DNA from: Bryoerythrophyllum caledonicum
Taxonomy: Eukaryota; Streptophyta; Bryopsida; Pottiales; Pottiaceae
Assembly: GCA_963971425.1 (NCBI GenBank)
Contig: OZ020517.1
Coordinates: 10,480,501 to 10,544,500 of the forward strand
Length of the DNA: 64,000 nt
Reading direction: 5' to 3'
The notes beneath the pieces are model-generated. The model did not search any database. It saw nothing but the letters and a program-made list of their open reading frames with translations, and was not told the origin of the DNA. The position numbers were made by a program, and so were the translations under genes. Below, one piece after another: positions 5,130 to 55,272 of this stretch (position 1 is the stretch's first letter; each line of letters starts with the position of its first letter).

Positions 5130-5236
5130 ATATTTTACATGTATGGTGTTGTATTTGAACATGATAAGGTTTAGATTGATTGAAATGGCCTCCAAATGAG
5201 AGATGCTAGTTGAAGAGTCTTTAATCCAGAGGCATA
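5130..5236 (+). repeat. Left arm of inverted repeat flanking LINE copy A
   Basis: This ~107-bp stretch matches the reverse complement of 18296-18402 at roughly 85% by eye. LINE copy A lies between the two arms, so A appears to have inserted into a pre-existing inverted-repeat (fold-back or TIR) element. Confidence 0.65.
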
Positions 5237-5307
5237 AGTCTTGCTAAACTTTAAAACATTTTTTGAACATGAGAAATGTATACACGTGAGATGTACACCT
5301 GTATATA

Positions 5308-5316
5308 TGGTTCCCG
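5308..5316. repeat. Candidate 5' target-site duplication of LINE A
   Basis: The 9 bases tggttcccg recur at 18072-18080 immediately after the TTC tail of LINE copy A. The length is modest, but the second copy lies exactly at the retrotransposon 3' end. Confidence 0.55.
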
Positions 5317-6099
5317 AATAGGTTCATCGGTTGGTGGTTCGATTCCTTCCAGATTATTAGTAGAGACTGATGGACCGTTTCTAAAGCTCTGTAAATCGTG
5401 GTGAGGGGAGAGGTAGGGACTTAGCTTGAGACTCAAGGAGTATGTGCTGCAAGGGGTTGCTGGCCTTGCTGTGAGCCTCCGTACTCTTGTTTGAGATAGG
5501 TTTTTGCAGGACTGAAAAGCAGTGGTAGAGTGTTGGCAGAGGCAGTAGCCAGATCTGAGTCCAGATTGTCGCAGAACATGCTCATAATGCTAGATCTACA
5601 CAGGCGTGATATGAAGCGAGTGGAAGCTAGTGTTGGGGTGTGGATCTGTGCACTCTAAGCAAGTACTCCTAACCTCCGCTTAGACATGGCAGTTAGAGTA
5701 GCAGATCTGCAATCCTTGCACAAAGTCCCTACTGATTCCAGATCCACGATCCAAGCTCACACTCAACACACACCAGATCTCCACCGAACAGCTACTAGGC
5801 AGGACAAAGGAAAGCGACCACTCTGAAGAGCAACATTCAACACATCTGCACCACCGCTTGCAACACACCATCCGCATCACAGATAAGTTCTGACCTATCT
5901 CATCTTTTCATTGCTGTAACTCACACACCACCAGCCAACACACTTTGTTTCATAAACTTTCTCCTTGATACATCTTTACAAGTCACATAGATCACCAGTA
6001 GTGATAGTAACCTAACACTAAAAAACACTACGCACAATCATCTTATCACTAATTCCTCTAACCTTTAGGCACAACATTAGCACATTCTACTTGCATACT

Positions 6100-6125
6100 G
6101 CACGCGGAAGCGCTAGAAAATTTTT
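6100..6125 (+). promoter_or_regulatory. Conserved leader motif (copy A)
   Basis: gcacgcggaagcgct followed by agaaaattttt matches 46646-46670 in copy C with a single change over about 25 bases. The rest of the two leaders is barely alignable by eye. Such local conservation suggests a functional RNA or promoter element. Its role is unknown. Confidence 0.4.
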
Positions 6126-6603
6126 ACAAGTCAAAATAGAGCACAAGTGAAGCAAATCAGCTGAAAGCGCGGCATCACAACTTACAACCCTGCAACACCA
6201 ACCAAAAACACTCCGCGTGCACACACAGAGTATCTGCGACACTGCCACAACCCCACAGATCTACATCAGCAACGATCATCAACAAAGAAGGGGATCTACG
6301 ACACAGATCGAGCAACTAAGCCACAACATTACATTGACGCAAACATCAAGAACAAGAGAAGAAAACGGACAACAAAGGTGAGTAGTTACAAACCTCTCTT
6401 TCCTTTCTCCATCTGCTACAACAGGACCCCCTCCCACTGCCCTCTCTCCCTGATCCTCCTCTCCCCTATCTCCCTGATCCTCCTCTCCCCTATCTCCCTC
6501 TTCCTCTCCTCCTCTCAGACCCCCCCGGCACCTTCTCAAGACCCCCCCTTAAATCCAACTGTAGATCCCCCCAAATCTATCCTCTCGGCAACTGCTGACC
6601 TTC

Positions 6604-6845
6604 TGACTCCCCTCCCGACTACTGAGATCCCCCTCCCAGAACACCCCCACACATAGATCCCCCCGAAACTCCCCTCTCAACAATTGTTGACCCTACGACT
6701 CCTCTACCGACTATTGAGACCTCCTCCCAGAATACCCCCACACATAGATCCCCTAGAAACTGCCCCCTTGACAACTGCTGACCCTACGACTCCCCTCCTG
6801 ACTACTGAAATCCCCCTCCAGAACACCCCCACACATAGATCCCCT
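6604..6845 (+). repeat. Tandem repeat, ~92 bp x 3
   Basis: Units begin with gactcc near 6604, 6697 and 6788 and each contains acccccacacatagatccc. The block lies inside the LINE A leader. Confidence 0.65.
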
Positions 6846-7174
6846 CCTCCCCGAACCTCTCCATACATAAGACTCCCCTCCCAACTTTCACAGGAAACCC
6901 TCCCCTCTCTCCGAAAATCTCACCCAAGCCTCTCAAGAACCCCTCAGATCGGAGACTCTCCCTCCCAATCCACACTGAAGTCCCCCCCTCCCCTCAAAAA
7001 CCCACCCCGGGCCTCCCACCACCATCAAACCCAAAACCCTGCGAAGCCCCTAGGAGCGGACAGGAGACTTGCGCGTGCGTACAAACTCCCCGAGCGGACA
7101 GACGACCTGAGACCTCGCAGCGGACAAGAGACCTGCACCCTCGTGAAGCTTCCTGCGCGTGCGTAAAGACTCCC

Positions 7175-7340
7175 CTGCGAGTACACGAAAGATGCGCTCC
7201 CCTACGCAAGTAAGTGAGCGCACACAGAACCCCCTGCGAGTACGCGCTGAAGTGCCCCCCTGCGCAAGCACGTGAGTACACACAGATCTCCCTGCGAGAA
7301 AGCAAACGAAGTGCTCCCCTACGCAGACAAGAGCCGAAAA
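7175..7340 (+). repeat. Tandem repeat, ~58 bp x 3
   Basis: Units begin with ctgcgag near 7175, 7234 and 7292 and include a conserved ctacgcaag-like phrase and cacacaga. The block lies inside the LINE A leader. Confidence 0.6.
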
Positions 7341-7701
7341 CCAACTGTCTCTCCCCGAAGTACTCACCCTGTAAACGCGAACTCAAACTAGGAGTTCCCC
7401 CGAGCGGACAGAAGACCTGCGACCTTGCAGCAACGGACTCCCTACCCACCTACCAAGCCCAACGACCTTCCTCTCCAACTGCTACCTCTGATAAGCGACC
7501 TCCCCATTCCAGGACCCAAGTCCAGCGACTCCCCACTCCAGGACCCAAGTCCAGTGACTCCCTACTCCCTAAAGTCCAGCGACCTCCTCCCCTCACAAGA
7601 AGACCAGGTAAGCTTCCTCAACCAGGTAAGTTTCTCTCCACTCTTCAATTTTGCGTGAAATTACACACTAAAGAAGCTAAGAAAATAAACAAACTAACGA
7701 C

Positions 7702-9336
7702 ATGTCTAACACAAAAAGAAACCTCCAGTTTGAAGTGCACATGGATATAGATGGTGAAGGGACAAGCAAAGCCCCAAATTCGAAAGAGAGAGGAACAACG
7801 AAAAACATGGAACTGGAGACAGGTAGCACCAAGAAGAGTAGAAGCGCACATGAAGAGGTAAGTCAATCCTCACCCCTCAACTCACTAACCATGACCTCTA
7901 AGTTTTGGCTAGGTTTTGAAGATATGGAGCGCCTCGCAATCGAAGAAGGATTGGAGGAACTCCTCTATGATGACAAGGTGGAAGATATGATGACTAGAGG
8001 ATTCCAAGAGCATGAGGCCAAGGAGTTCAAGACATCAAAGGTGGCTTATCCAAGGATACCCCAAACTTACTACCCCATTGCAAGACCGGGAAGCGAGGAG
8101 CAACACTACAACATCACCCAGATCCCCCACAACACCAAAGTCAACGGAGCCACATGTTTGGCACACGGTTTTCATGTAGCTATCCATTTCGAACCTCCTT
8201 CCTCCATTTTATTGCATGATGATGTTTACAAAATGATAACCCATAGGCTAGTAAACATGGACATCAAACTAGGAGATGGTGTTATGGATCCTATATATAC
8301 TCATTGCCATAGTGTCAAGAGGGGTGGGCAAAAAGGTGTATGGACCGGGATGTTTAAACTACACCTACTTAACCCCGAAACCGATGCTCTCATGATGCTA
8401 AAAGGCATTAGGCCGTTCATTCTTTCCATAGATGACCAAAATACAATTGGGAAAGTGTGTAAAGCTTACCCTCAAATTGCTATCTCTTCTAACCTCTCCG
8501 TGCAAGTGAGAAGTGATACATTGATAGGTATCTCCTCCCACCATCTTTTCAAGGACATCCTCATCAATAGCTTCAAGAGAGGTCAAGACTACGAGATCAC
8601 GGAGGTGTCTAAAGTGAAAGGAGACCCCTATGCCTTCATTGCCGCCACCTCTCCTCTACAAGCCTCCAAGACACAACTCCAACACATCACCACCTATCAC
8701 GAGGTCATCAAGGCAAGGAAGACCTATACCGGTAACCATATGACCCCCGAAACCAAGGCAAAGAAAGATGCCATATCTCTCACCCTCTCCCCTTTACCTC
8801 TTCTCATGAATGTGCAAGATGTCACTAACGCAATTCAAAGGATCATGGGTGTTAACAACGTTAAATCCATATGGTTCCATAAAGAAATTGGAGGTAGGCA
8901 TAATGGCAAAGCTAACGTGGAATGTGCTAACCCAATTGTATACAAGCAATTTGTTAGGAAGCACTTTGACATTGGAGACAACTATGTGGACTTCACCCCA
9001 CATTGGAAGAGCTTAGAAGGCACACACCCCCCCACGGAGGAGCAAGCCAACGCCTTTGGATTCAACGACATCAATGCCGCCATGGTTAACACCGTTGCAA
9101 CCTTCAAAATACAAGATGCCCCCGCCACCATCACCAAAAAGGAGTTGAAGGAAGCCTTGGAGGAAAACAACAAAAAGGTGATAGAAGAAAGCAAGAAGTA
9201 CACCGACACCCTACACAATTCTTTGATGGAGCATTTAGACAAGATGGAAGAAACTATGAATGCCACAAGACTTGCATTCCAAGCCATGAAGGGAAGAATG
9301 CCACCTAGACTCGAAGATAGACCGCCAAACATGTAA
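7702..9336 (+). CDS. LINE ORF1 protein (copy A)
   Basis: This intact 544-residue frame starts at an ATG and is the only unbroken retrotransposon gene in the window. The protein has a hydrophilic, basic N-terminus, then a WLGF-containing region (about 69-72) and a conserved block with KLHLLNPE, GIRPFIL and GKVCKAY. A later segment (about 370-445) looks like an RRM-type fold by its strand/helix alternation and has a counterpart in the B-copy ORF1. The C-terminus (about 485-535) is a lysine/glutamate-rich coiled coil. No CCHC knuckle is present. By analogy with LINE ORF1 proteins it should bind element RNA and multimerise into a ribonucleoprotein with the ORF2 product. The RRM assignment is by inspection only. 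It reads in the same direction as ORF2, about 600 bases upstream. Confidence 0.8.
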   Translation: MSNTKRNLQFEVHMDIDGEGTSKAPNSKERGTTKNMELETGSTKKSRSAHEEVSQSSPLNSLTMTSKFWLGFEDMERLAIEEGLEELLYDDKVEDMMTRGFQEHEAKEFKTSKVAYPRIPQTYYPIARPGSEEQHYNITQIPHNTKVNGATCLAHGFHVAIHFEPPSSILLHDDVYKMITHRLVNMDIKLGDGVMDPIYTHCHSVKRGGQKGVWTGMFKLHLLNPETDALMMLKGIRPFILSIDDQNTIGKVCKAYPQIAISSNLSVQVRSDTLIGISSHHLFKDILINSFKRGQDYEITEVSKVKGDPYAFIAATSPLQASKTQLQHITTYHEVIKARKTYTGNHMTPETKAKKDAISLTLSPLPLLMNVQDVTNAIQRIMGVNNVKSIWFHKEIGGRHNGKANVECANPIVYKQFVRKHFDIGDNYVDFTPHWKSLEGTHPPTEEQANAFGFNDINAAMVNTVATFKIQDAPATITKKELKEALEENNKKVIEESKKYTDTLHNSLMEHLDKMEETMNATRLAFQAMKGRMPPRLEDRPPNM

Positions 9337-9950
9337 AGACTAAAGACCCCAAGGTAATGTATAATTACCACCTAGTATCTACTACCTTCTACATACGGTA
9401 TTTTACCATAGATAGATACATCCTTCTCAGTAGTATTATACACGTAGCAACACCCAAATACTCTAATTGTATGATCTATTATACAAATACCAAATACATT
9501 TTACACTACAAATACATTCAAAAAATATCCAACCATTATACCATCTACTGTATATGTATTAAAAAATATTCCTATTATACAAAATACAAATACAACACCA
9601 AATACTACTTCAACAACCATACCAATTACCAAATACCAAATACAAAAATTTATACATCTTCATGTATATACACACACACATGTAAACAATACCAAAATAC
9701 ATACAAACACACCAACAAATATATGCGTACATATACAAACAAATAACAAAACAAATAACAAAAAAACATACACAAAAACACAAAACAATGTATACACACA
9801 CAAAAAATCATACACACATACACAAATGAAAACTTTCAAAAAAATACACAAAATAGGCGAAACCTCACATAAACAAATAATCACACAAACACAAAAAAAA
9901 TAAAAAACAAAAAATTAGTAATAATAATAATAACACTACTAACACCATAA
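9337..9950 (+). other. A/C-rich spacer between ORF1 and ORF2 (copy A)
   Basis: The plus strand is almost entirely A, C and T with very little G, in runs of ata, aca and aaa. Open frames on both strands here are products of that composition. The last in-frame stop before the ORF2 frame is TAA at 9948-9950. Confidence 0.6.
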
Positions 9951-10190
9951 AAAAAATACAATCCCACACGCCTACCAAAAACAAAAACACCCAATATTCA
10001 ATCTAAACACACGAACACCACAAAAACAACTACGAAAAATACAACCCACCCAAACAAAGACATACACACACCACCAAACAAACACAACCCCAAAACAAAT
10101 AAAATAAAAAAACCCCAAAAAATCACACAAAAAACAATAAACCCAAAACACATATCTAAAAACACGAAACCACTACTACTTCTAGGTGGA

Positions 10191-10208
10191 GAATTAGAAA
10201 CCCACCCC
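10191..10208 (+). other. Degenerate upstream 2A-like motif (copy A)
   Basis: In the same open frame as the main 2A motif, and about 184 codons upstream, is LLLLGGELETHP. It resembles LLLLLGGDIETNPGL but lacks the N-P-G core, so it would not be expected to work. It could be a decayed duplicate or chance resemblance in low-complexity sequence. Confidence 0.35.
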
Positions 10209-10742
10209 CATACAATTATAAGTACGAGTATAAATATCAACTCAGATACTGAAATATATCCCAACACAAACAACATAACAAACACTAATATCAATCCCAA
10301 TATATACACTAACACAACTACAAATAAACACAATTTAAAAACCCCCTCAAAAATCAACATAAACCCAAATACAAACACTCTGATAAGTAATAAACACAAA
10401 CACACATGGCCAAACACAACCAAAAAAATATATAAACAAACATACACATACGAATACACCATAAAAATAATAAATACACCTATGCAAATAAACACATGTA
10501 CACGCAAAAAGGTCATAACAAATGCAACTACATCCAAAATAAAAAATGAGACGATGATGATAACAATGATGACGATGATGAAATACAGGAAAACCAATAT
10601 CCATAAAACAAACACCCGCCCACCCCCAAACAAAAAATACTTTAATAATATAACAAAGCCTCAACAAAATATACAAAAAACAAAAACTTTAAAACACAAC
10701 AATAAGCATACATACCACAAACTCCTCCTACTACTAGGAGGA

Positions 10743-10766
10743 GACATAGAAACCAACCCAGGACTC
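10743..10766 (+). other. 2A-like ribosome-skipping motif, defective (copy A)
   Basis: LLLLLGGDIETNPGL followed by Met. The consensus is D-(V/I)-E-X-N-P-G-P and the final proline is leucine here, which should abolish skipping. Copy C has the full consensus at the matching place. Confidence 0.75.
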
Positions 10767-13700
10767 ATGCCTAACATACTAAAAATACACCCTACATTGC
10801 ATAAGAAAAATGCCAAAAAATACTTCATACCCAATACTATAAAATTACAACCAGAATATAGACACATTGCAAAATCTTTTGCCCCCTTTTTAAAAAATAC
10901 ACATACACTCCATTACACACATAACACTACCACCCAAACATAGCCCAATACATACAACAAAAAAATACGCATCCACCACCCCACGTTTTATATGCCTTAG
11001 TAGTCACTACTCATCCACACATAGATGAATGTAACTATCTCCTAAATCCACAAAACCTAAACACAATTACTTGGACCAATACACTCCTACAAACTTTACT
11101 AAACTTACAAAACCCACCAGAACGACACATTTACACCCCGCACCCGTATACAAAGTTTCTTGAAGACAACCAAAATATTATAAACCATGAGAACTCAATA
11201 CATAAAAGACTATACAACTTCTTACATAGTCAAGACATACCACCCTCAAATGATACAATAAAACTAAAATTCCCTTACCTCCCTAATAACCTCATAAATG
11301 AATCACTAAAATGTCTAAATCCTATACTAGAATACACCCACCCGCCCCCACCTCTTCCCTACATCCTTCCTCAAAATCAAAACAGTAGATCAAACCAAGA
11401 AAATACATACATAATCACATGGAATGCCTCCTCACTAAACACTGCCCTCCCTAGTTTGCAAACTTTAGTCACAAACATAGACACACCACCGGCCCTCATA
11501 GTTATACAAGAAACAAAACTAACTGCCACAAAATCTACAAAATATATACAAAATATATTTCAAAATTATAAACTCATCTTTAATAATACACATGCACTTA
11601 CAAGATGCATGCAACAACGGAGACCATACACACCGGGCCGCGGTGGCCTCCTTACACTAATACACAAAAAATATACATTCCCCGGCAACATCAACAAAAT
11701 CCCTACCCCAATGCACATATCACCATACATTCAAATAATTAAAATCACTAATCACCCACTACAATCGTGGTTAATCTTTCACATGTATATGCCATCCCAC
11801 CCCGAAGATACTAGATTTCTCTTAGATATACAAAACACTATTACATCCCAAATTAATAATAATCCCAATCATACATACCTATTATGTGGAGACTTCAACA
11901 GAGACATAGCGCTAATTGGCCGCCAAAATGGAAACCATCACACCCCCCCTCAAAACATTGATTACCAATGACGTCGCTTCACAGAAAACTTAAACTTCAC
12001 TTACATCAATATTGATACACAATTCTCTAGACAAGGTGGCTATAATTATAGTGATTGGAGTCTAATAGATGGATTCTATATAAATACAAACAACAATACA
12101 CAATACACCTCCACAAGAAACAAAGATAATATTCTCAACTCGGACCACTCACCCGTACAATTGCACATCCCAAATAACACACTAATTAGTAGAACTCCTA
12201 TAATACTAAACAAAGACACTATACGCATACTCAACCTTATCTCAAAAAACAATATGGAAAAATTCAACACAAAATTCTTTGAAGAAAACTCCGGACAAAT
12301 CGACTCCCTCATAAACACTCTTGAAAATAATAGTCAATTAACACAAACACAATGGCAAGAAGCATGCCACACCCTAGACAAACTCATCAATAAAATCTCT
12401 GATACACTAGAACAAACTTGTAGAGCACACCCAATACCTCAAATGACAAACAAAACTTCTCAACAAGGCGGGTACCTACCCCGCAAACTTTCTAAAACTT
12501 GGAAACAACACTTAACCACATACCATACCATGCGCAAAACCATTAGAATTGTAAAAAACAACCCTCAATGGCGGAACCACCCCATATACAATGAACTACT
12601 AACTATGCAACACATCCAAATCCCTACCCCGCCGCCTCCGGACCTTCCCCACGATACATGGATAAAAGATATCACGATAATTGCAAAAAATGCCAACATA
12701 CAAGCCCGGAAAATAATCACAAAATACACCAAAGAAAACATTAAAAAAGCCATCTCAAAATATAGACAACTATACGAAATTAGCCCCAAAAAAATTAACA
12801 AAAAAGTCTTTAAAAACCTTGAATCCTCGCCAATGGATTGTGTCACAAATCAATATAATAATATTCTAACTAGCCCCGAAGACATTGCGAATGAAATATT
12901 TAACCAACAATCCAAAACCAACAGACCAACAATACCAACATGTAATTACCAGCCACAACATACAATAGAATGTACATGTGCAGTACGCCAATACCCATGG
13001 CATGACCTAGACGGATATACCCTTGACAAACGGGGCGAACCAGAAATCCCACTACATAAATACCTCAACAGAGCCACATACGACACATGCCTTCAAAATC
13101 TTGGAAATAATAAAGCGCCAGGCCCAGACCGCATACCAAACTCAATACTAAAAAACATGCCTCCAAGATTTCATAAACTATTATTCCTATTCTTCTCTCA
13201 CTGCTATAAACAAAAACAAATACCAAACTCATGGAAATCAAGTACAACAATTTTACTATACAAAAAAGGGGACCCGTCCATACTACCCAACCATAGGCTA
13301 ATTGCACTAGCTAACACAATATATAAACTCTTTACCAGTACACTCACCTCCATACTATCCTTATACGGCGAAAAATTCAAAATCCTACATGATAGTCAAG
13401 AAGGATTTAGAGCAGAGAGAAGTACCGCACGACAAATACAAACTATAATAGCCGCACTAGAAGACGCAAAATTTACTAACCAAGATATATACATACTATA
13501 CGTGGACTTCAAAAATGCCTTTGGCTCAATTGACCATGCCCGACTTCTAGCAATAATGACGGACCTTGGTTACCCAAAAGAGGCAACTACACTTCTTGGA
13601 AACATCTATTCTCAATCATCTACTTGTTATACCGGTGAACATTTTGGAAAAACAAAACCTATTCCCATCCAGAGAGGAACTATACAAGGAGACACCCTCA

Positions 13701-16700
13701 GCCCATACCTATTCATTATATTCTTAGAACCACTACTCAGATGGCTAGAAAGAGGCAATTATGGATACACGTTTGGTACATCACAGGTCATAATAAACTC
13801 CACCGCATACGCGGATGACCTAGCCACCATAACTAACAAAATCAAATCGATCCAAATCCAACAAACAAAATTAATAGATATTGTAAATGGGCCGATATGG
13901 ACGTAGGTGTCCCAAAATGTGCCGCTACCGGATGCCCAAACAAATCCAAACTGACCCCTATCACTTTCAAAGCCCTAATGCAAGCCTCTAACATCAATTA
14001 CCGAAATCAACTGATCCCAATACTTCACCAAAATGAACCATACATATACTTAGGTACAAACCTTGTTCCCTCACTAAAATGGAAAATCCAAATCCACACC
14101 ACAACAACGAAACTCATCAAACAATGCAAAGACCTAACAACATGCCCAGCCACCATGAAACAAAAAATAAAAATGGTTGATACCGTACTACGCCCAGGTG
14201 TGGCATACAGTTTCTACAGTGTACCATACTCTATGCCAGCTATCAAAAAACTTGAAAAAAAAATAATAGCCATACAAAAAACCATATGTGGATTACCAAA
14301 ATGTATGTCAAATGCAATAACCCAACTCCCACATAACCTATTTGGACTCGATGCTTTCTCCCTAAAAAACGCATATCTCCGATGTATAGGCGAACAACTG
14401 CAAAATGCTTTAAACGATAAAGGAAGGCTTGGAAAAATATATAATGGACTAACTCATTATATCCTTGCCCAATATGGTGGCGCCGAAAACATACCCAGAA
14501 TTTAAAAAAGTGACTGTATAAGATCACCAATAACACGAACATTCTTCTTATTAAAACATATAGCTAAAGTCCACCTTAAAAGTACACTCCCAAAGTTCCT
14601 CATTAATCCTACAACACTAGAAATACTATGGCGCCAAGAAACACTAAACCGCAACACACTAAATGCCCAACTCTCCCAAAAGCTCCTACAAAAACTCCTC
14701 TCAAAAAACATTTTTGAACTAACCCAAATTATTTTACCCAACGGCACACATCATGAACAATGAGGACTTCAAAACCTACCATTTCACCCCATCCAAACTA
14801 ATAAAAAACGCCCTAAATATTGCTAAACAACTATTTTGTCACTCTACTTGCCCCAATACATGTCACACTCCTTGTAACATACACCCATACTCTCACATAC
14901 TTAAAGATTCATTCATCACCCTCAACAATAACATCATCCCAAGAAATATCCCCACATCAATCAATCCCCCTAACCCTCCACATACATACCATCCCCGTCC
15001 TCCTACGTACATCCCCAAAAATCCTACCACATATCCCATTAAAATCATCATACGCCATAAACATATCCAACACATAGACACAAATAACATACAAACTACC
15101 TACACAAAATATTTATGCCAATGGCAGCACAATGATAATATATACAATAAATGGCTCTCTCAAAGAGACCTTTTTCCACGGCACGACACCAATACCTCCA
15201 CACTAAACACCGAAAAATTAAAACAATACTACCAAAAGATCCAAAACAAAATATACTCAGATATCATCCTTGCCCACCACCTACAAGAACAACTCTCAGA
15301 CTCAAGATCCGTAACACCACCCATAATTATCCCACTCTTAAACATCTACACAACAGAATGCAACCCCGAAAATGATATCCTTACATCCTCAAACACAATT
15401 CAAATAGATAACAATCAAGCACATCTATACGAAGAAAACGGCCGACATTTACACAGCATACCCATTACCCGGCTCCAATGGTTATGGAACCAATATCATA
15501 CAACACTACAAACCCCTACAAACATTGAACCAACAACCCAACCCTTTGAAACCGAATTAATATGGCTGTACCAAAGATATAAATATCGAATACCAAAAAC
15601 TGACCCCCTCAAAAATGCGCAATACACAATACCCACCCCCATTTTAGACTCACTGATATCATCCTTTAACATCGAACACTCATACTTTTCCTCCCGGATC
15701 ACATGCCCTACCAAACTAAATAAATTCTACTCACCGTACGAAAGAGACAAAATATTTGGATCCCTAGGCAAGGCCTTTGAACACAAATGGATTGGAAATG
15801 GAATAGCTCACCTCCACAACGAGAAAGACATAGAACAAGCCATACATTGGGCTAGACTTGCCGCCAAACACGATCCAAATAACACAAAAACAATCATCAT
15901 CACACCGAACAACAATTGGTACCAAAACAACAACCAACATTCAAACCCATTCCTAGATTCCGACATCATTGCATTATTCGAAGCAGACACAATACCATAC
16001 GAAGAACCTAATATCCCACCCGAGCTAAATAAACCCCGAACAGAGCCATCTACATTACAAATACTATGCGTCCATCATCAAAATCAAACCCTGGGATCCC
16101 TAGAACAACTTGCGGAACTTACCTCCATAACAGACAATTTAAACATACACCGACTATACACAAAATCGGCCCCATCAACACCTATACAAACCTCCGTAAA
16201 TAGAAGTAAAAAATGGTTAAAACTAAACTATGTCAACAACACATTAAACTACTCTGTCATACCTCTCCCTCTTCCAGATTACCAAACCCATACCACACCA
16301 AAATTTAACCCCACATACAACTATTACACCGACGGCTCCTTTAAACCACCAGAACAAATTAGCTAGGGCTCTTGGCGCAGAGAAAAAGCTGGCTATGGCA
16401 TATATAATCCTACCAAAGAAATTGAACTAGCCAAAAGACTTCATGCACTACAAAATGTCCTGAGAGCATAACTCATGGCCATCCACAAAACACTACAAAT
16501 CATCACAACAAAATACAATGATGAACCTGCACATATATTCACCGATTGTATAAATGCACTCTACCTACTTAACACTCAAATAACACACCCTACCCTTCAT
16601 AATAGCCACCCCGACCAAACCATATTAACATCAATGGTCCAAATGTTACAAAACCGTACACAAATCACAACCCTCCACAAAGTGAGAGCCCATGTCGACA

Positions 16701-18034
16701 TTGATGGCAACGAACAAGCAGACAAACTAGCAAAAGAAGGCCGAGAAAAAACACACAAAAATGCCAAAGATCCACACGAACATGCCAATGCTACCCCATA
16801 CTACTTTCAAAAAGAAGATTGGCCTTCCAAAGAAGATACCCCCGACAAAGGCCCAATTAGATTTTTGGGCAAATATCTCAAAAAACAAGACCTCTACAAC
16901 AACCTTGACACAATCTCAGAAAATATTCATAACATAGAAAAATGGACTAACAATAACGACATAGACAATGAACTCTCTACAAACTTTTGGAAAAACCCCA
17001 TCATCTCATACTCGCAAATAACTTGCCTCATCAAATTCCGTATGGGTCAGTATATGAGAAACGCTCGCAAACAACTCTTCATTAGAATAGAAAGATTCCC
17101 ATCCATAACATGTCCCATATGCCCCTCAACGGACCCCGACACATGACTCCATGTCCTACTCAAATGCCAAAACCACCACATACACTCTCTAATTGTTAAA
17201 AGACATAATAAGCGGTATGGGAAGTCCAAAAACTAATCACCTCTTACAATAAATTGAGATGTTTTATACTAATGAACGCCGACTCTTATAATAACAATCC
17301 ACAAGAAAATACGGTCCCCCCTTGGCTACTCCCATGCTCATGTATGATCCAAAGATGTCATTGCAACGCTAGGCCCAAACCGGACATCCTTTGTGTTAAA
17401 GGTTTACCATATAATGACCCACCACCCGTTAACATCAACCAAGACTACACCATTCAATTCATTGAATTCACATCTGGCAATGATAGATTTTCCCCGGAAA
17501 CAATCCAAAATAAAATAGATAAATACCAACCCCTTATTGACGACATCATCGCCCTTGGATGGAATGTGGACCCCCTTATTGTAATCACATCCGGCGCTCA
17601 TGCCACCACCTTTATCCCATCTATGAAAACCCTAGAAGATACCTTCAAGATACCCATTGATACAATCAAAACCTCCTTTAAAAACATTAACACCATTGCT
17701 ATCCAATATGCCATGTCCATTCTTCTACATAAACGCAAAATCGAAAACAACCAAGCCCTCCCGGATACACAGGACCCCCTCCCTTAAATTCTTCCCCCTC
17801 CTTGAGTTATCATGATTAGTTGGTTTTGAGGTTTTTGACTAATTGCTTGGTTTGTGATTGGTTCGTTGACTAGTTACTTGGTGTGTGATTCGTTGGTTAG
17901 ATTGATTGGTTTGTGGTTCTTTGGCCACTTGCTACATAGTGTCTACCCTCATAAGAGGGAAGTAGTTCCAGCTTACTAATTCCTTGTCTACTGGGCATGG
18001 TCTTAGTAGTGGAACGAACAGACACTTTATTCAC

Positions 18035-18057
18035 GCCGGCCTCCTCCGGAGACCGGT
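18035..18057 (+). other. Conserved 3'-terminal hairpin (copy A)
   Basis: gccgg and ctcc arms pair with ggag and ccggt around a three-base loop, with one A/C mismatch. Equivalent hairpins are at 55233-55255 (C) and 38248-38269 (B, minus). Such 3' stem-loops in LINEs are known to recruit the element's own reverse transcriptase. That role here is inferred. Confidence 0.7.
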
Positions 18058-18071
18058 GTTCTTCTTCTTCT
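18058..18071 (+). repeat. TTC-type 3' tail of LINE copy A
   Basis: gttcttcttcttct directly follows the hairpin and is followed by the duplicated tggttcccg. Simple-repeat tails in place of poly(A) occur in several LINE clades. Confidence 0.7.
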
Positions 18072-18126: not shown

Positions 18127-18295
18127 ATGTTTGCTACACTTCAATACATTATTTTGTATGCTACAAAAGTAAAATAAATGCTTGTATATACGGTTCGAAG
18201 TGACATATAACCCTTAAAGGTCGCTTGGGGACCATATATATGGTTACGTATTTCACTGTTAGGATACAAGAAATGCATTAAAAATTAACAAGACA

Positions 18296-18402
18296 TACAC
18301 CTTTGGATTGAAGATTCTTCAACTACCATCTTTAATTTGGAGGTCATTAAAACCAATCTCAACCTTATCATGTTCAAATACGACACCATACATGTAGAAT
18401 AT
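18296..18402 (-). repeat. Right arm of inverted repeat flanking LINE A
   Basis: The first 29 bases pair perfectly with 18098-18126. The full ~107 bp pair with 5130-5236 at roughly 85%. The host element therefore has several inverted copies of one arm. Confidence 0.7.
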
Positions 18403-18425
18403 ATGAACATTTTGCAACTTCTCAA

Positions 18426-38229: not shown

Positions 38230-38526
38230 AAGAAGAAGAAGTAGAATGTCGGTCTCCGAAGGAGCCGGCATGATAAAGTGTCTGTTCGTTCCACTACTAA
38301 GACCATGCCCACTGGACAAGGAATTAGTAAGCTGGAACTACTTCCTCCTCTCGGGATCAACACTATGTAACAAGTGACCGAACATCATAAAGCCAACCAT
38401 AAAAGAGTATCAAGGAGGGAGGGGGAGAGAGAGGGAAGGAGGAGAATGAGGGGAGGGGGAAATGGGGAGGAGAGAAGGGTGGGGAGGAGGGTGTGTTTCG
38501 TAATGTCTCAAAATGAGGGGGTAAAT
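38230..38526 (-). other. 3' UTR of LINE copy B
   Basis: The terminal ~110 bases match copies A and C (hairpin at 38248-38269, then tacttcttcttctt on the minus strand). The region just after the ORF2 stop differs, with a pyrimidine-rich run (minus strand; about 38400-38500) not seen in the others. Confidence 0.7.
38248..38269 (-). other. Conserved 3'-terminal hairpin (copy B)
   Basis: On the minus strand ctcc/ggag pairs around a TTC loop with flanking gccgg/ccgac, weakened by one mismatch compared with copies A and C. Confidence 0.65.
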
Positions 38527-41500
38527 TTATGGAAGGTCTTGTGTAACGAGAAGGGCTTGGTTGTTTTCAATTTTGCGTTTGTGTAGGAGGATGGACATAG
38601 CATGTTAGATGGCAATGGTGTTAATATTTTTAAATGTCTTTGTAATTGTATAAGTGGGAATTGTAAAGGTATCTTCTAGGATTTTTAGAGATGGGATAAA
38701 GGTGGTGGCACGAGCGGCGGTTGTGATTTCAATAGGGGATTCTACTTTCCATCCGAGGGCAGTGATGTCCTCAATAAGGGGTTGATATTTATTGATTTTG
38801 TTTTCGATTGTTTCTAGGGAGAATCTGTCATTACACTATGTAAATTCGATGAATTGAATGGTTTAGTATTGATTAATGTGGTTTGGTGGGGGGTTATTAT
38901 ATGGTAGGCCTCTAATGCATAATATGTCCAGTTTGAGCCAAGCATTGCAGTGGCATCGTTGAGTAACACATGTACATGGGATTAGCCATGGTGAACCGTA
39001 TTTTCTTGTGGGTTGTTATTGAAGGAGCCGGCATTCATGAGGATAAAACATCTTGATTTGTTATGAGAGGTGATTAATTCACGGATTTCCCATACAACTT
39101 TGTTATGTCTTTTGACAATTAGAGAGTGTATGTGGTGGTTTTGGTATTTAAGTAGGATATGGAGCCATGTGTCGGGGTCTGTGGAAGTGCATATGGGGCA
39201 TGTTATAGATGGGAATCTTTCTATTCCAAAGAAGAGTTGTTCTCAGGCGTTTCCCATATATTGACCGGTACGGAATTTGATGAGGCATGTTATTTGTGAG
39301 TCTGAGATGATGGGATTTTTCCAGAAATTTGTAGAGAGTTCATTGTCTATATTGTTGTTACTATTCCATTTTTCTATATTAGAGAAGTTTTCTGCGATTG
39401 TGTCAAGGTTGTTATAGAGGTCTTGTTTCTTGAGGTATTTGTTTAAGAATCTAACCGGGCCTTTATTAGGTGCACCTTCTTTAGAAGGCCAATCTTCTTT
39501 TTGGAAGTAGAAAGGGGTAGCATGGGCATGTCCGTATGGATCTTTGGCATTTTTATGCGATTTTTCGTGACCCTCTTTTGCTAATTTATCTGCTTGCTCG
39601 TTTCCATCAATATTGGTATGGGCTCTAACTTTGTGAAGAGTTGTTATTTGTGTTCAGTTTTGTAGCATTTGGACCATTGATTTTAATATAGTTTGGTCGG
39701 GGTGGCTATTGTGGAGGGTAGGGTGTGTTATTTGGGTGTTTAGTGGGTAAAGTGCATTGATACTATCGGTGAATATGTATGCGAGTTCATTGTTATATTT
39801 TGATATGATGATTTGTAGTGTTTTGTGTATGGCCATAAGTTCTGCTCTGAGGATGTTTTGTAGTCCATGAAGTCTGTTGGCTAATTTAATTTATTTAATG
39901 GAGTTATATATACCATATCCAGTTTTTTGTTTGCGCCAGTTTCCCGGGCTAACTTGTTCGGATGGTTTGAAGGAGCCATCGGTATAGTAGCTATATGCGG
40001 GTTCAAATTTTGGTGAGGTTAGGATTTGGTAGTTTGGGAGAGGTGGGTGTGTTGCAAGGTAGTCTAATGTACTATTGGTGTAGTTTAGTTTTGACCATTT
40101 TTTGTTACAATTTACGGGGGTTTGTATTTTTGGTGGTAGGGCCACTTTTGTATATAGGCGGTGTATGTTTAGGGAATTTGCTATGGAGGTGAGTTCGGCT
40201 AGTTGATCTTGAGTGCCAATAGTTTGATTTTGATGATGGACACATGTTATTTGTAATGTAGATGGTTCAATTCGGGGCTTTCTTAGCTCAGGTGGGATAG
40301 TGGGTTCTTCGTATGGGATTGAGTCTGCTTCAAATAGTGCAATGATATGGGAGTCTGGAAATGGGTTAGATTGTTGGTTAAAGTTTTCGTACCAATTTTT
40401 GTCCGGTGTGATAATGAATGTAGCTGTGTGGCGTGGATCATTTTTGGCAGCAAGGCAGGCCCAATGTAGTGCTTGTTGGATTTGCTCTTCATTATGAGGG
40501 TGAGCCATATCCTTACCGTTCCATTTATAGTCAAAGGCCTTGTCCAAGGAGCCAAATATTTTATCTCTTTCAAAGGGTGAATGGAATTTTTTTAATTTGG
40601 TCGAACATGTGACGGGGGAGGAGAAGTATGATTGTTCGATATTCAAGGATGAGATTAAGGAGTCTAGAATGGATGTGGGTATTGTGAATTGTGCACTTTT
40701 GAGGGGATTATTTTTTGGAATGCGATATTTATATCTTTGGTAAAGCCAAATTAGTTCGGTTTCAAATGGTTGGGTTGTTGGTTCGATGTTTGTAGGAGTT
40801 TGTAGTTTCAAATTGTGTTGGTTCCATAGCCATTGGAGTCTAGTAGTGGGAATATTGTGTAAATGTCGGCCATTTTCTTCATATATATGGGCATGATTGT
40901 TCTCTATTTTGATTGTGTTGGAGGATGTGAGGATGTCGTTTTCGGGGTGTCATTCCGTTGTGTAGATGTTTAGGAGTGGAATGATTATGGGTGGAGTTAC
41001 GGATCTTGAGTCTTGAAGTTGTTCTTGGGGGTGGTGGGCTTGGATGATTTCCGAATAGAATTAATTTTTTGATAGTTTGTTTTAGTTTTTCGGTGTTATA
41101 TGTGGAGGTATTACGGTCATGTCTTGGGAAGAGGTTTCTTTGGGGAAGCGATTTGTTGAATATATTGTTATTATGTTGCCATTGGCATAGATATCTTGTA
41201 TAGGTATTTTGTATTTTGTTGATATCTAGGCGTTGTATATGTTCATGGCGTATGATATTAGTGATGGGGTATATAGTGGGATTTTTGGGGATGTATGTTG
41301 GGGGGCAGGGGTGGCGTGGGTGTGGTGGATTGGGGGGGGGTGGATTGGTGGTAGGGTAGTTTTTGGGGAGGTGCTATTATTTATGGTGATGAATGGGTCT
41401 TGGAGTATGTAGGAGTATGGATGTTTGTTGCAGAGGATATCGCATGTGCTGGGGCATGTTTGATGGCAAAAAAGTTGTTTGGCAACATTTAGGGCACTCT

Positions 41501-44500
41501 TGATTAGTTTGGATGGGGTGAAGTGGAGGGTTTTGAAGTCCTCATTATTCATAATGTGTGTGCCGTTTGGTAGAGTAATTTGTTTTAATTCGAAAATCTT
41601 TTTTGAGAGGATTTTTTGTAAGAGTTTTTGAGAGAGTTGGGCGTCTAGTGTGTTATGGTTTAGTGTTTCTTCTTTCCATAATATTTCTAATGATGTAGGA
41701 TCAAAAAGGAAATTTGGGAGTGTACTCTTAAGGTGAATTTTAGCTACGTGTTTTAATAAGAAAAATGTATGAGTTATTGGTGATCTTATGCAATCCGTTT
41801 TTTTAATTCTAGGTATATTGTCGGCACCGCCATATTGAGCAAGGACATAATGTGTTAGTCCATTGTATATTTTCCCGATTATTCCTTTGTCATTTAGAGC
41901 ATTTTGTAATTGTTCTCCTATACATCTAAGATAGGCATTTTTGAGGGAGAAAGCTTCAAGTCCAAGTAGGTTATGTGGGAGTTGGGTCATTGCGTTTGAC
42001 GTGCACTTTGGCATACCACATATAGTTTTTTGTATGGCTATTATCTTTTGGTCGAGTTTTTTGATAGCTGGCATAGAGTATGGTACAACATAGAAGCTAT
42101 AGGCTACGCCTGGGCATATTACGGTGTCGACCATTTTAATTTTTTGTTTCATAGTGGCCGGGCATGTTGTTAGCTCTTTGCATTGTTTAATGAGTTTTGT
42201 GGTCGTAGTGTGAATTTGGATTTTCCATTTTAGAGAGGGAACAAGGTTCGTGCCTAGATATACATATGATTTGTTTTGGTGTAGTATGGGGATTGGTTGG
42301 CCTCGGTAGTTGATGTTAGAAGCTTGCATTAGGGCTTTAAATGTAACTGGATTCATTTTGGATTTACTTGGACATCCAGTAGCAGCACATTTTGGGACGC
42401 CTACGTCCATACCAGTCCATTTGCAATATCTATCGATTTTATCAATTTGTGTTTGTAATGACTTTATTTTGTTAGTTATAGTAGCAAGGTCATCAGCGTA
42501 GGCGGCGGAGTTTATGGTGATTTGTGATGTACCAAAAGTGTATCCATTTTTGCCTCGCTCTAGCCACCTAAGTAGTGGTTCTAAAAATATAATAAATAGG
42601 TATGGGCTAAGGGTGTCTCCTTGGATAGTTCCTCTATGGATGGTTTGTAATTGTCTAGATGTACTTCTCTCTGCCCTAAATCCTTCTTGACTATCATGTA
42701 GGATTTTAAACTTTTCACCGTATGACGATAATATTGAGGTAAGTGTACTGGTGTAGAGTTTATATATTGTGTTGGCTAATGTGATTGGTCTATGATCTGG
42801 TAGTATTGAAGGATCTCCTTATTGGTATATTAAAATTGTTGCACTTGTTTTCCATGAGGCTGGTATTTGTTTTTGTTTACAGCAGTGAGAGAAGAATAGA
42901 AATAGTAATTTATGGATCTTGGGGACATGTTTTTGAGTATTGAGTTTGGTATACGGTGTGGTCCTAGGGCTTTGTTATTTCCGAGGGTACGGAGGCATGT
43001 GTCGTATATGGCTCTGTTGAAGTATGTGTGTAGTGGGGTTTCAGGTTAGCCTCATTTGTCTAAGGTAAATCCATTTAGGTCATGCCATGGATATTGGCGT
43101 ACTGTGCATGTGCATTCGATTGAGTGTTGTATTTGGTAGTTACATGTTGGTACTGTGGGTCTGTTGTTTTTTATTTGTTGGTTAAATATTTTGTTTGCAA
43201 CGTCTTCGGGGCTAGTTAGAATATTATTGTATTGATCAATAATACAATCTAGTGGTGGGGATTCGGATTTTTTAAAAACTTTCTTATTTATTTTTTTAGG
43301 GCTAATTTCGTATAGTTGTCTATATTTTGAGATGGCTTTTTTAATATTGTCTTTGGAGTATTTTGTAGTTATTTTTCGGGCTTGTATGTTGGCATTTTTG
43401 CAATTATTGTGATGTCTTTTATCCATGTATCATGAGGTAGGTCCAGGGGGGGTGGGGCAAGGATTCGGGTATGGTGCACATTCAGTAATTCGTTACATAT
43501 GAGGTAGTTGTGCCATTGTGGGTTGTTTTTTACGACTCTAATAGTTATTCGTATTATATGGTATGTGGCTAGGTGTTGTTTCCATATTTTTAAAAGTTTG
43601 CGGGGTAAATAACCGCCTTATTGTGATGTTCGGGTTGTCATCTGTGGTATTGGTTGGGCTTTGCAGGTTTGTTCTAGTGAAACGGAGATATTGTTGATAA
43701 GTGTATCTAGGGTGTGGCACATTTCGTGCCATTGTGTTTGAGAGAGTTGGTTATTATTTTCAAGGATGTTTATGATGGAGTCAATTTGCATGGAATTTTC
43801 TTCAAAGAACTTTGTGTTGAATTTTTCTAAGTTATCTTTTGGAATGGAGTTAAGTATGCGTTTAGCAGTGTTATTTGTGATTATAGGGGTACGGCTTATT
43901 AATATGTTATTTGGGATGTGGAGTTGTATAGCCAAGTGGTTCGAGTTGAGAATAATGTCTTTGTTTGTTTGTTGTGGAGGTGTATTGTGTATTATTATTT
44001 GTATTTATATAGAAGCCGTCTATTAGGCTCCAATCACTATAGTTATAGCCGCCTTGTCTGGAGTATTGTGTGTCAGTATTTATGTAGGCAAAGTTTAGGT
44101 TTTCTGTGAAGTGGCGCCATTGGTAGTCTATGGTTTGGGGGGGGAGTTATGGTTTCCGCTTTGTCGACCAATTAATGCTATGTCTCTGTTGAAGTCATGC
44201 ATATCATGTAAGTGTGAATAGGATTCAAATTCATTTGTGATGTAATGGTGTTTTGTATATCTATAATATATCTAGTATCTTCGGGGTGAGATGGCATATA
44301 TATGTGAAAGATTAGCCATGGTTGTAGTGGTTGATTAGTAATTCTAATTATTTGGAGGTAGGGGGATATGTGCATTGGAGTGGGGATTTTTTTGATGTTG
44401 CCCGGGAAGGCATATTTTTTGTGTATCAGTGTAAGTAAGCCACCACAGCCCGGTGTGTATGGTCTCCGTTGTTGGATGCATCTAGTTAGTACATGTGTGT

Positions 44501-45378
44501 TATTAAAAATGAGCTTATAGTCTTGGAAAATATTTTGTATGTATTTTGTAGATTTTGTGGCGGATATTTTTGTTTCTTAAATGACTATTAGGGCCGGCGG
44601 TGTTTCTCTATATGTGGTTAGAGCTTGTAAGCTGGGGAGAGCGGTGTTCAAAGATGACGCATTCCATGTAATGATGTTTGTATTTTTATTGTTTGTGCTA
44701 GTGTTTTGGTTTTGTGGGGGGAGGAAGATGGGGGGAGGGGGTGGATGGGTATATTCTATTATGGGGTTGAAACAATTTAACGTCTAATTGATTAGATTGT
44801 TAGGAAGGTAAGGGAATTTTTGTTTTATTGTGTCGCTTGAGGGTGGTATAGTTTGGCTATGTAAGAAATTGTATAATTCTTTATGTATTGAGTTCCCATG
44901 GTTTATGATATTTTGATTTTCTTCAAGAAATTTTGTCTACGGATGTGGGATATGGATATGTCTTTCGGGTGGGTTCTGTAAGTTTGATAATGTATGTAAT
45001 AGTGTGTTGGTCCATGTAATTATATTTTGGTTTTGTAGGATTAAAAGATGATTACATTCATCTATGTTTGGATGGATGGTAATTACTAGGGCATATAGGA
45101 TGTGTGTTTGTGGGTGTGTATTTTGTTGTTGTATGTAATGGGCAATGTTTGGGTGTGTAGTGTTGTATAGATGGTGTAATGTATGTGTGTTTTTCAATAA
45201 AGGTGCAAATGTTTGAGCGATGTGTTTGTATTCTGATTGTAGTTTTATGGTATTTGATATAAAGTATATTTTGGCATTTTTCTTATGAGATGTCGGATGT
45301 CTTTTTAGTATATTAGGCATTGGTCCCAGGTTGATTTCTAAGTCTCCGCTTAGTAGTAGTAGGATTTTTAGGTGTTTA
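38527..45378 (-). pseudogene. LINE ORF2 polyprotein, broken (copy B)
   Basis: It has the same domain order as copy A: a degenerate 2A-like motif (45321-45344), an AP-type endonuclease (about 44600-43900), reverse transcriptase, RNase H (DGS retained near 39985; GNEQAD near 39600), and the C-terminal finger and KPDI-type region (about 39200-38640). The longest clean segments are 42410-41226 (394 codons) and 40811-39891 (306 codons). In the RT about 225 bases are missing at about 42640, removing the motif around YVDFKNAFGS while keeping QGDT and YADD. The endonuclease GDFN motif is also lost to a frameshift. It cannot be active. Confidence 0.8.
45321..45344 (-). other. 2A-like motif, defective (copy B)
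   Basis: LLLLSGDLEINLGP followed by Met. It lies at the same place as in copies A and C. The essential N-P-G-P has become N-L-G-P. Confidence 0.65.
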
Positions 45379-45623
45379 GATTTGGTGTTGTGTTTTAGAA
45401 TTCTTGTTTTTTGTGTGATTTTTTGCGGTCTTTTTTGTGTTATGGGAGTTATGTTTGTTTGAAGGTGTGTGTGTGTCTTTTTTTGTGTTTATGGTGGGTG
45501 TAGTAATAATTGATGTGTAGTGTATATTGGGTGTTTTTGGCTTTGTATTGGTGTGTGGAATTGTATTCTTTTTTGAGGTGTTTATTTGATTTTTATTGTA
45601 TGTTTTGTGTGTGTTCACGTATT

Positions 45624-45626
<3 letters not shown>

Positions 45627-45656
<30 letters not shown>

Positions 45657-45670
45657 TTTTAAAAAAAAAA
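45627..45670. repeat. (GTT)n and T/A tract in LINE B spacer
   Basis: About nine GTT units are followed by a run of T and then A. On the minus (element) strand this is an AAC microsatellite within the ORF1/ORF2 spacer. Confidence 0.75.
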
Positions 45671-45709
45671 TTGTTCTTAATTTTGTTTTTGTTTTGTTTT
45701 GTTTTATAG

Positions 45710-45722: not shown

Positions 45723-47340
45723 ATGAGAATGTTGGGGTTCAACTCCATAATGAAGAGCGATGTCTGAGAGAAGCTGAGAGCTCCGTCTTTTCAGGTTAGG
45801 TGCACAAAGAAGTTAGTCTCTGGGAAGAGGTGTGAGCGCAACGAAGGTGGCTGGATCCGTTGCATACCGTGCTCATAGCTTAGATCGGAGGCAATAGTGG
45901 GCTTTGAGAGTGGCGTTGTGTTGGAAAGGGGTAGTAAAGGTTAGATCTAACTCTGGCATACGAATTTTGAGCAATTTGAAGGGAGATCGGATTATGGGCT
46001 GATCTGAAAGCACTGGGACCATGTGTTGGAATTCAATCTAACTTCTTAGAACTCAAATTCGATATACAGATGCAGATCTAGCTTGTGTTGGTTGTAACGC
46101 CCTAAGCCCACTTAGACTTCTTGATTGCTGCCCCGACCTAGAAACCACCACACATACGATCTGAAGTTTATACATAGGCCCGTGACAGCAATACTTTACA
46201 CAGAGGACCGCTTACTAGGACAAAAGCGAGATCAGCACAGTGCACACAGCTAGGAGCGAATACAAGATCAGGAGAGAGCAGCCAACCAATAGAGATATCG
46301 AGATCACAAGTCAACACGAGCACAAGAGAGTGTCATCAAGATCACGAAATCAAGCGGACAACACTCCACCTCTAGAGTGCCCAGGTTCGATCTAACCTTA
46401 CTCCATTTCATTTTACTTTTTGCTTGTTTATTAGTGTTTGATTTGTTTGCAAATTACAGTACATCAGTGATACAAAGAGATCTACACAACATTTACACAT
46501 TAGTAGATACCTTGGACATCTCACATATCACCACGTACACGCACATTACATGTAGAACGCCACAAACTCACTATAATAACACGTACATACAGCTCCACAC
46601 TAGAATTCTAATAAAAAAATCCTATCAAGATCGTGTGTGTAGATCGCACGCGGAAGCGCTGGAAAATTTTCCCAGATCTAGATCTACCTGCACATCAGCA
46701 ACAAAGACACACAACATCAGTACTGAAGAAAACGACACCTCGACAGGAGTGCACAAGAACACGACGCAACGGCCAACAAATCCGTAACTCTATCCACATC
46801 ACAACAAGACCTCACAGCAAGATCGCAACATACAACAACACCTCAACAGGGAGCAACCTACAGCAATTTCACACCAAGACTCGATCAAACGTAACGCAGG
46901 ACCAAGATCCAGCCCGCGGCAACATAACAGGGAGCACACTCTACCCCTCCTCTCACAGTTCTTCCCCTTCTTGCATTCCTCACTCACCGCTCTCACCTTG
47001 CTTAAACCCTCCACCTCTCCTCCCTGTCCCCTCCCTCACTCTCACCACAGATCCCAAGCTCCCCCACTCAAGCCCCCAGCGCATTACTACAGACAGTCAC
47101 CTGAATCGAACCCAAAGACCCCGACCCAACCCTCCCCAAACCCTCGCACTCACACAACTTCTCCCTGCAAACCTCTCCCCATAGCGACCCCTGGAACTCC
47201 CCCTGCGACCTACAAAACCTTGGAAACGACCTTGTGAATCTTCATAGCCACCCCTGGAAATCCCCCTGCGACCTACCAATTGGTAGTAGCGACCCCCCTA
47301 ATCCCCCCTGCGACCTACCTAATCCCCCTTGCGACCTACC
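45723..47340 (+). other. Leader (5' UTR) of LINE copy C
   Basis: It shows little similarity to copy A's leader except a block around 46646-46670. The downstream part becomes C-rich as in A. Frames at 46377-46787 and 46633-47184 overlap one another and have no counterpart in the other copies, so they are not called genes. Confidence 0.5.
46646..46670 (+). promoter_or_regulatory. Conserved leader motif (copy C)
   Basis: cgcacgcggaagcgct followed by ggaaaatttt matches 6100-6125 of copy A with one change. Confidence 0.4.
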
Positions 47341-47345
47341 TAACC

Positions 47346-47720
47346 CCACTACCCATACATATACTGATACGTATATTGATACATATACTGATACGTATAA
47401 TGATACATATACGGATACATATACTTATATGTATACTGATATATATATTGATACACCTACTGATATATATATTGGTACATATACGGATACATATACTTAT
47501 ATGTATACTGATATATATATTGATACACCTATTGATATGTATATTGGTACGTATATTGGTACATATACTGATTCATATATTGATATGAATACTGATATGA
47601 ATACCAATACGAATACTAATACGAATACTTACACGAATACTTACACGAATACTAACACGAATACTTATACGAATACTGATACGAATACCAAGACGAATAT
47701 TGAGGCACATACTAATACGA
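47346..47720 (+). repeat. Hexanucleotide-type minisatellite (gatacn/tatact)
   Basis: The stretch is built from gatacatatact-like units, including a longer ~70-bp unit directly repeated (atatacggatacatatactt near 47408 and 47482). Later it drifts to gaatactaatac-type units. It is open in frame but is a composition effect. Confidence 0.7.
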
Positions 47721-54987: not shown

Positions 54988-55272
54988 ATTCTCCCCCCGC
55001 CTTGATTTTCATGATTAGTTGGTTTTAAGGTTTTTGACTACTTGCCTGGTTTGTGGTTAGTTCGTTGGCTAGTTGCTTGGTTTGTGATTGGTTGGTTGGT
55101 TGATTGACTTGTGGTTCTTTGGTTTCTTGTTACATAGTGTCTACTCTCGAGAGAGGGAAGTAGTTCCAGCTCACTAATTCCTTGCCTTGTGGGCATGGTC
55201 TTAGTAGTGGAACGAACAGACACTTTATTCACGCCGGCCTCCTTCGGAGACCGGCGTTCTTCTTTCTTTCTT
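54988..55272 (+). other. 3' UTR of LINE copy C
   Basis: Closely similar to 17788-18071. It ends in a hairpin (55233-55255) and a short TTC/TTTC tail, then the target-site duplication. Confidence 0.8.
55233..55255 (+). other. Conserved 3'-terminal hairpin (copy C)
   Basis: gccgg and ctcc pair with ggag and ccggc around a TTC loop, with a single C/A mismatch. It is the best-paired version of the three. Confidence 0.75.

Follow-up and report, generated by a model that had tools for sequence, protein, structure and literature searches.

Two predicted endonucleases and a CAPAM-like domain in a Dualen-like LINE family of a moss genome

The 64,000 nucleotides of Bryoerythrophyllum caledonicum contig OZ020517.1 analysed here (positions 10,480,501 to 10,544,500; hereafter the window) contain three copies, A, B and C, of one family of long interspersed nuclear elements (LINEs). 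This is very probably a Dualen/RandI-like family of non-long-terminal-repeat retrotransposons, 9.5-12.8 kb long, that inserts without site specificity, ends in a (TTC)n tail and has the domains, domain order and mechanism set out below, the domains having been assigned by sequence and fold prediction. As read from the sequences, the order would be open reading frame 1 (ORF1; in copies A and B and in a further genomic copy, L030), a repeat-rich leader, a 2A peptide and then ORF2, with an endonuclease/exonuclease/phosphatase (EEP) endonuclease, a reverse transcriptase (RT), a chromo-like region, a CAPAM-like domain, RNase H, a CCHC zinc finger and an R2-type restriction-like endonuclease (RLE).

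Domain architecture and its conservation

Seven domain queries from copies A and C were searched with tblastn, one of the three copies always being the query's own. The EEP (in two pieces), RT, chromo-like, CAPAM-like, RNase H and finger-plus-RLE segments were each recovered in all three copies. Together with Pfam matches in copies A and C, this bears out a statement of an earlier note on this DNA, made from the letters alone, that in every copy an EEP domain lies N-terminal to the RT and an RNase H after it. The EEP of copy A scored 27.2 bits against a cut-off of 24.5 (Exo_endo_phos, E 4e-6), and RNase H is placed between RT and RLE. Frameshifts or stops interrupt the window copies, so ORF2 was measured by distance; it spans about 2,340 codons.

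The C-terminal region reads as the earlier note had it: a CX2CX9HX4C finger, RHN, KPDI, the acidic residue of FIEF and KIDKY, with 26 residues between the Asp of PD and the acidic residue. Among 23 copies (20 fetched from the genome and the three of the window, several truncated), exact patterns recovered QFIEF in 23, NKIDKY in 21, KPDILCV in 20 and KRHNKAVWE in 18. In the AlphaFold2 (AF2) model of copy C, KIDKY occupies residues 186-190, inside a predicted helix (180-199), and fold searches placed the model nearest R2, the LINE rows returned from the PDB being R2 and L1 only. R2 itself has a CCHC finger and an RLE fold with a lysine on a helix (Asp996, Asp1009 and Lys1026, from the part of PMC10499050 used here). 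A CCHC finger joined to a predicted PD-(D/E)xK fold with its lysine on a helix supports the assignment as an R2-type RLE, and a C-terminus that merely looks alike, lacking a nuclease fold, was rejected because the model matches the RLE fold. That fold had been named beforehand as a test, and its prediction upholds the proposal of two endonucleases plus RNase H with a true RLE. As for the further idea that the long spacing between PD and the acidic residue may mark a distinct branch, a relative (P0014) has about 20 additional residues inserted there; because the spacing varies within the family, it is no branch marker by itself.

Upstream of ORF2, the 2A peptide follows the D(V/I)ExNPGP consensus given for LINEs of trypanosomes (L1Tc) and sea urchins in the part of PMC4981915 consulted. 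Among 12 long sequences, ten carry DIETNPGP and one DIETNLGP, and in one none was found. L1Tc and the sea urchin elements are different LINE lineages that have this consensus in common with the element described here. The copies are broken in the stretch that relates the frame of ORF1 to that of the 2A peptide. ORF1 of copy A matched an ORF on the reverse strand beyond copy C (blastp, E 4e-29, 32% over 231 amino acids), which contains the ORF1 of copy B, and positions 2-349 of L030 (44% over 117 amino acids). No Pfam family scored above its cut-off in copy A ORF1, and against the PDB it returned two weak adhesin rows alone (E 0.48 and 0.66). As a side observation, several copies have tandem repeats with units of about 123 bp in the leader, 5' of the 2A peptide (L019, 963-1452); in copy C the units there measure 12/72 bp (47355-47721). 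In 12 of the 19 rows of the target-repeat test described below, a sequence that is nearly the reverse complement of the 3' terminal hairpin stands some 170 bases before the 2A peptide (for example L020, 2299-2330).

Copies C and A represent two subfamilies, with 96% and 79% identity, respectively, to copy L020. The ratio of nonsynonymous to synonymous substitution between them (dN/dS; Nei-Gojobori method, Jukes-Cantor correction) was 0.04-0.20 over all tested segments (uncorrected ratios 0.10-0.34): 0.16 and 0.10 for the two EEP pieces, 0.04 for RT, 0.08 for the thumb, 0.18 for the chromo-like region, 0.09 for both the CAPAM-like domain and RNase H, and 0.20 for RLE. Since both copies have decayed, these values are pushed upward. 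The synonymous difference was 0.18 in RLE versus 0.46 in RNase H and 0.46-0.68 in the other segments, and the 3' end of copy A (16958-17775; 91% amino acid identity to copy C) was probably exchanged with the other subfamily by template switching or gene conversion.

A CAPAM-like domain between reverse transcriptase and RNase H

The segment between RT and RNase H of copy C matched the Pfam family PCIF1_WW with 41.4 bits against a cut-off of 31.1. Its AF2 model reached a predicted local distance difference test score (pLDDT) of 85, and the six PDB matches at E <= 0.001 were all CAPAM. The model and these matches support the presence of the methyltransferase-core fold of CAPAM/PCIF1. Reading PF12237 as a WW domain was rejected on the PDB matches and on the part of PMC7641849 consulted. 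Whereas CAPAM/PCIF1 is a cap-specific adenosine methyltransferase with a catalytic NPPF, the domain here is embedded in a LINE polyprotein and has AHPH in its place in 22 of 23 copies, the remaining copy giving no pattern match. Some relatives carry NPEY or NPKY at this site, closer to NPPF; the row of P0142, which was misaligned, was left out of the comparison.

Among the matches listed from the open-licence literature (titles and the starts of abstracts), none describes a LINE with a CAPAM-like domain or mentions PF12237 by name, and by title none bears on PCIF1/CAPAM with retrotransposons or transposons or on adenine methyltransferases with LINEs. Such a domain would link reverse transcription to mRNA cap recognition, and would give a way into the question of how LINEs recognise their own RNA and complete its 5' end.

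Relatives and placement among known LINEs

A protein search yielded 159 relatives from metagenome-type sources, the 120 listed having 40-87% identity. A search from a distant relative, P0131, gave 22 proteins including P0131 itself (among 7,976 scorable candidates), with PF12237 in 13 and PF03372 in nine. An RLE profile built from nearer relatives, for which a match meant a domain E < 1e-4 in the C-terminal stretch, was matched by 14 of the 22; four proteins (P0132, P0135, P0140 and P0147) combine EEP, RT, CAPAM-like domain and RNase H in a single ORF with an RLE profile match. P0140 also has an N-terminal Ulp1-type peptidase at residues 80-209 (Peptidase_C48, 20.9 bits against a cut-off of 20.7), and P0145 has a PHD finger at 894-935, between RT and the CAPAM-like domain. 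A scan of genome contigs gave two short matches only, in the RNase H part and from bacterial bins.

Of the 22 proteins, 19 entered an RT tree of 24 rows; P0133, P0143 and P0151 were omitted, as the anchor pattern failed in them. In this tree 18 relatives grouped with the window element (98/96), separately from R2, L1 and an element of Diplonema; with three outside lineages and long branches, the tree indicates cohesion rather than a clade name. Against the PDB, the RT matched turtle and zebra finch R2 at E 2.3e-28 to 5e-25, L1 at 1.4e-15 and silkworm R2 at 1.6e-14. Searched against PDB sequences, profile A2 gave RNase H or retroviral RT plus one designed protein in the best 60 of 101 rows, with no R2 row among them.

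Within the parts of the sources available, Dualen/RandI LINEs are described as having both an apurinic/apyrimidinic endonuclease (APE) and an RLE (PMC3636483, PMC4640811), an RNase H (PMC4640811) and, in eight of eight RandI families, non-A short-repeat 3' tails (PMC3747384), with green algae (PMC4438587, PMC8226300) and cryptophytes (PMC12747079) as hosts. The element here shares the pair of endonucleases in one element, the RNase H in ORF2 and such tails, and adds a CAPAM-like domain and a 2A peptide, neither of which those parts mention for Dualen/RandI. LINEs with two endonucleases are thus already known, and it is the CAPAM-like domain that appears unreported in the sources as far as consulted. 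For a LINE of the dual-endonuclease kind in land plants, we found no report among the matches listed from the open-licence literature, outside which most subscription papers fall. Dualen elements have their RNase H between RT and RLE, and a cysteine protease domain. No protease family was found by Pfam in the window ORFs scanned, and among the relatives there is the marginal Peptidase_C48 of P0140.

The label "Dualen-like" rests on architecture and is partly supported. The earlier note had placed the element in a Dualen-like clade; the domain order and the grouping of its RT with similarly built metagenomic elements, away from R2, L1 and Diplonema, speak for that placement, and the PDB matches, mixed between R2 and L1, speak against it. 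The same grouping bears in part on the note's second refuting case, an RT that falls inside an ordinary I/Jockey clade.

Insertion and spread

In the 437-Mb genome, at least 84 close copies with 93-100% identity were counted (best-first, 84 scored of 10,558 first-look candidates), and the family looks recent. One and the same terminal hairpin was recovered at 37 of 43 ends, with a tail of (TTC)n or T type and of variable length after it; six ends had no hairpin by the pattern used. The flanks of the 37 ends that were read differ, and site-specific insertion was not accepted. Truncation at the 5' end is frequent, and repeats of 8-12 bp stand at both junctions in four of the seven truncated copies tried (L024, L025, L028 and L033), besides copies A and C; in the other 12 rows of this test, the boundary used was internal in most. 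Together these marks suggest target-primed reverse transcription without site specificity.

Copy A is flanked by the 9-bp repeat TGGTTCCCG, at 5308-5316 and again directly 3' of the tail. Over a search region of this length a 9-mer is weak evidence by itself; what supports the boundary, which is probably correct, is its position at the tail. The earlier note's span of 9951-17787 covers only part of this probable extent and missed ORF1. Copy C is nested in copy B, parting the ORF1 of copy B from its ORF2, with a 13-bp target duplication (45710-55285) whose repeat TACATAAGTATAC stands at 45710-45722 and again directly 3' of the tail. This nesting, like the CAPAM-like domain, the 2A peptide and ORF1, was absent from the note. 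The land-plant host that it proposed agrees with the plant-like telomere repeat TTTAGGG at the four readable of six contig ends, although algae share this repeat.

Proposed mechanism and alternatives

In the mechanism we propose, ribosomes would skip at the 2A peptide and release the ORF2 protein from the leader. This protein would bind the 3' hairpin of the element RNA, nick the bottom strand and prime cDNA there, and RNase H would clear the template. The first nick may be made by RLE and the second by EEP, or the reverse; we lean towards RLE for the first and EEP for the second strand, because RLE directly follows the finger, an arrangement also found in R2. The CAPAM-like domain, with its altered catalytic motif, would most likely bind the element RNA at its capped 5' end and not methylate it. 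It is an old question which strand each endonuclease cuts when a LINE integrates, and an element with both nucleases under selection would make their division of labour directly testable.

Several observations weigh against the reading of a dual-endonuclease, Dualen-like family that moves in this way. All three window copies carry frameshifts or stops and are defective, which corrects the earlier note's account of ORF2. In copy A the finger/RHN stretch is interrupted by a stop (17146) and a frame break (near 17212), and copy C reads GEFN instead of GDFN in EEP and YYTNGSF instead of YYTDGSF in RNase H. ORF1 was matched only in copies A, B and L030, most fetched stretches ending at 10 kb and perhaps falling short of it; the 5' end of the element is provisional because copies A and C do not align at their 5' ends and copy C has no ORF1 match. 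No target repeat was found for L023 or L038, nor for L020, whose 5' end may be real, and for L026 the 3' end was not found. Synonymous differences of 0.64-0.68 are near saturation outside the 3' end. The RLE ratio is the highest, with few changes behind it because the 3' end of copy A looks recently exchanged. The chromodomain profile reached E 0.0011, below cut-off, in one of eight members, and the PDB match to CBX4 had an E of only 0.6, so a firm chromodomain call was not accepted. In its first round the RLE profile missed eight of the 22 relatives found from P0131. Of these eight, P0151 was picked up in round two, when the profile included round-one relatives, and six of the remaining seven are 1135-1804 residues long with no RNase H listed. 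The first-round match of P0135 is to the finger half, its RLE half reaching only 2.4e-4. Long branches come together in the RT tree, whose rows besides the window element are R2, L1, Diplonema and metagenomic relatives, with no named Dualen, I or CR1 element; silkworm R2 was no better than L1 in the PDB matches.

The alternatives concern where the second endonuclease came from, whether it exists, and what the CAPAM-like domain does. An element of R2 lineage that captured an EEP secondarily and lost its site specificity, converging on Dualen without being related to it, would explain why the three best RT matches in the PDB are vertebrate R2 and why the RLE is nearest R2. The finger, the RLE fold and the RT similarity are indeed shared with R2; EEP, RNase H and the 37 unlike flanks are features of the present element, whereas R2 inserts in 28S rDNA and is not known to have EEP or RNase H. 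RLE is the sole endonuclease in the R2 group, and an EEP is present here. "Nearest R2" is itself a weak argument because the LINE rows from the PDB were R2 and L1 only, RNase H sits between RT and RLE, and the domain order is common to divergent metagenomic relatives, so that any capture would be old; we regard this origin as improbable. Less probable still is an ordinary APE-type LINE (I/Tad/L1-like) whose C-terminal finger region only resembles an RLE and whose EEP is the sole DNA cutter. Many APE-type LINEs carry RNase H and a C-terminal finger, the EEP is there, insertion is not site-specific and L1 is among the RT matches, but APE-only clades (L1, I, Jockey, CR1 and RTE) have no RLE, and here an RLE fold is predicted.

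It is somewhat less unlikely, though we still doubt it, that the CAPAM-like domain is an active methyltransferase adding m6Am/m6A (methylated adenosines) to the element RNA, or to DNA, for disguise or stability. The CAPAM fold, purifying selection at a dN/dS of 0.09 and the NPEY or NPKY of some relatives would fit activity. The Asn of NPPF is required for catalysis, and AHPH, in 22 of 23 family copies, has lost it. Beyond the dual-endonuclease, Dualen-like reading that we prefer, we tentatively entertain a wider one: a deep, widespread LINE clade may carry a host-derived, cap-recognising CAPAM domain in its polymerase polyprotein, which in this lineage would be a catalytically dead cap binder. 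It would hold the capped RNA of its own element, so that this RNA is copied preferentially in cis and its 5' end completed, with the two retained endonucleases dividing first- and second-strand cutting between them.

Features of the window

Table 1. Coordinates of the LINE copies and their parts in the window.
Feature	Position	Strand	Basis or remark
Copy A, whole, including (TTC)n tail	5317..18071	+	12.75 kb; extent probable
Copy A ORF1	7681..9333	+	551 amino acids; C-terminus coiled-coil-like by eye
Copy A leader ORF with 2A-like GDIETNPGL	9951..10943	+	
Copy A EEP (AP-type) endonuclease	11303..12400	+	Pfam PF03372; tblastn
Copy A RT (with frame break)	13088..14298	+	RVT_1 E 1e-22; tblastn
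Copy A chromo-like region (weak)	15002..15217	+	homology to copy C
Copy A CAPAM/PCIF1-like domain	15389..16237	+	PF12237 E 7.5e-8; tblastn
Copy A RNase H	16304..16747	+	tblastn
Copy A CCHC finger and RLE	16958..17775	+	91-92% amino acid identity to copy C; stop 17146, frame break ~17212
Copy B, 3' part (3' end approximate)	38235..45709	-	EEP, RT, CAPAM-like, RNase H, RLE (tblastn)
ORF with copy B ORF1, beyond copy C	56172..58034	-	blastp to copy A ORF1
Copy C	45723..55272	+	9.55 kb; inserted in copy B
Copy C 2A ribosome-skipping peptide GDIETNPGP	47941..47967	+	
Copy C EEP endonuclease	48612..49601	+	tblastn
Copy C RT	50285..51499	+	RVT_1 E 1.6e-26; PDB matches R2 and L1
Copy C chromo-like region (weak)	52205..52420	+	PF00385 E 0.022 / 0.0011, below cut-off
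Copy C CAPAM/PCIF1-like methyltransferase-fold domain	52592..53440	+	PF12237 (PCIF1_WW) E 1.5e-10; AF2; PDB matches
Copy C RNase H	53506..53949	+	PF00075 E 5.6e-13; tblastn
Copy C CX2CX9HX4C zinc finger	54313..54369	+	read directly; within R2-matching model
Copy C RLE nuclease (predicted)	54370..54984	+	RHN; KPDI 54580-54591; E of FIEF 54667-54669; KIDKY 54715-54729; AF2 model and fold searches
Copy C 3' terminal hairpin and TTC-type tail	55231..55272	+	fold z -5.1 for 55160-55275

An Rfam scan of the window returned 0 families. Elsewhere in the genome, the top RVT_1 matches include Ty3/Gypsy elements (L002-L004 and L007), which by eye we take to be like the Tcn1-like chromoviruses of fungi and mosses. 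Within the window, a short repeat stands on both sides of copy A in opposite orientations (5118-5265 and 18267-18414; 83%), and a minisatellite of about 40 units of 33/66 bp lies at 59437-60738.

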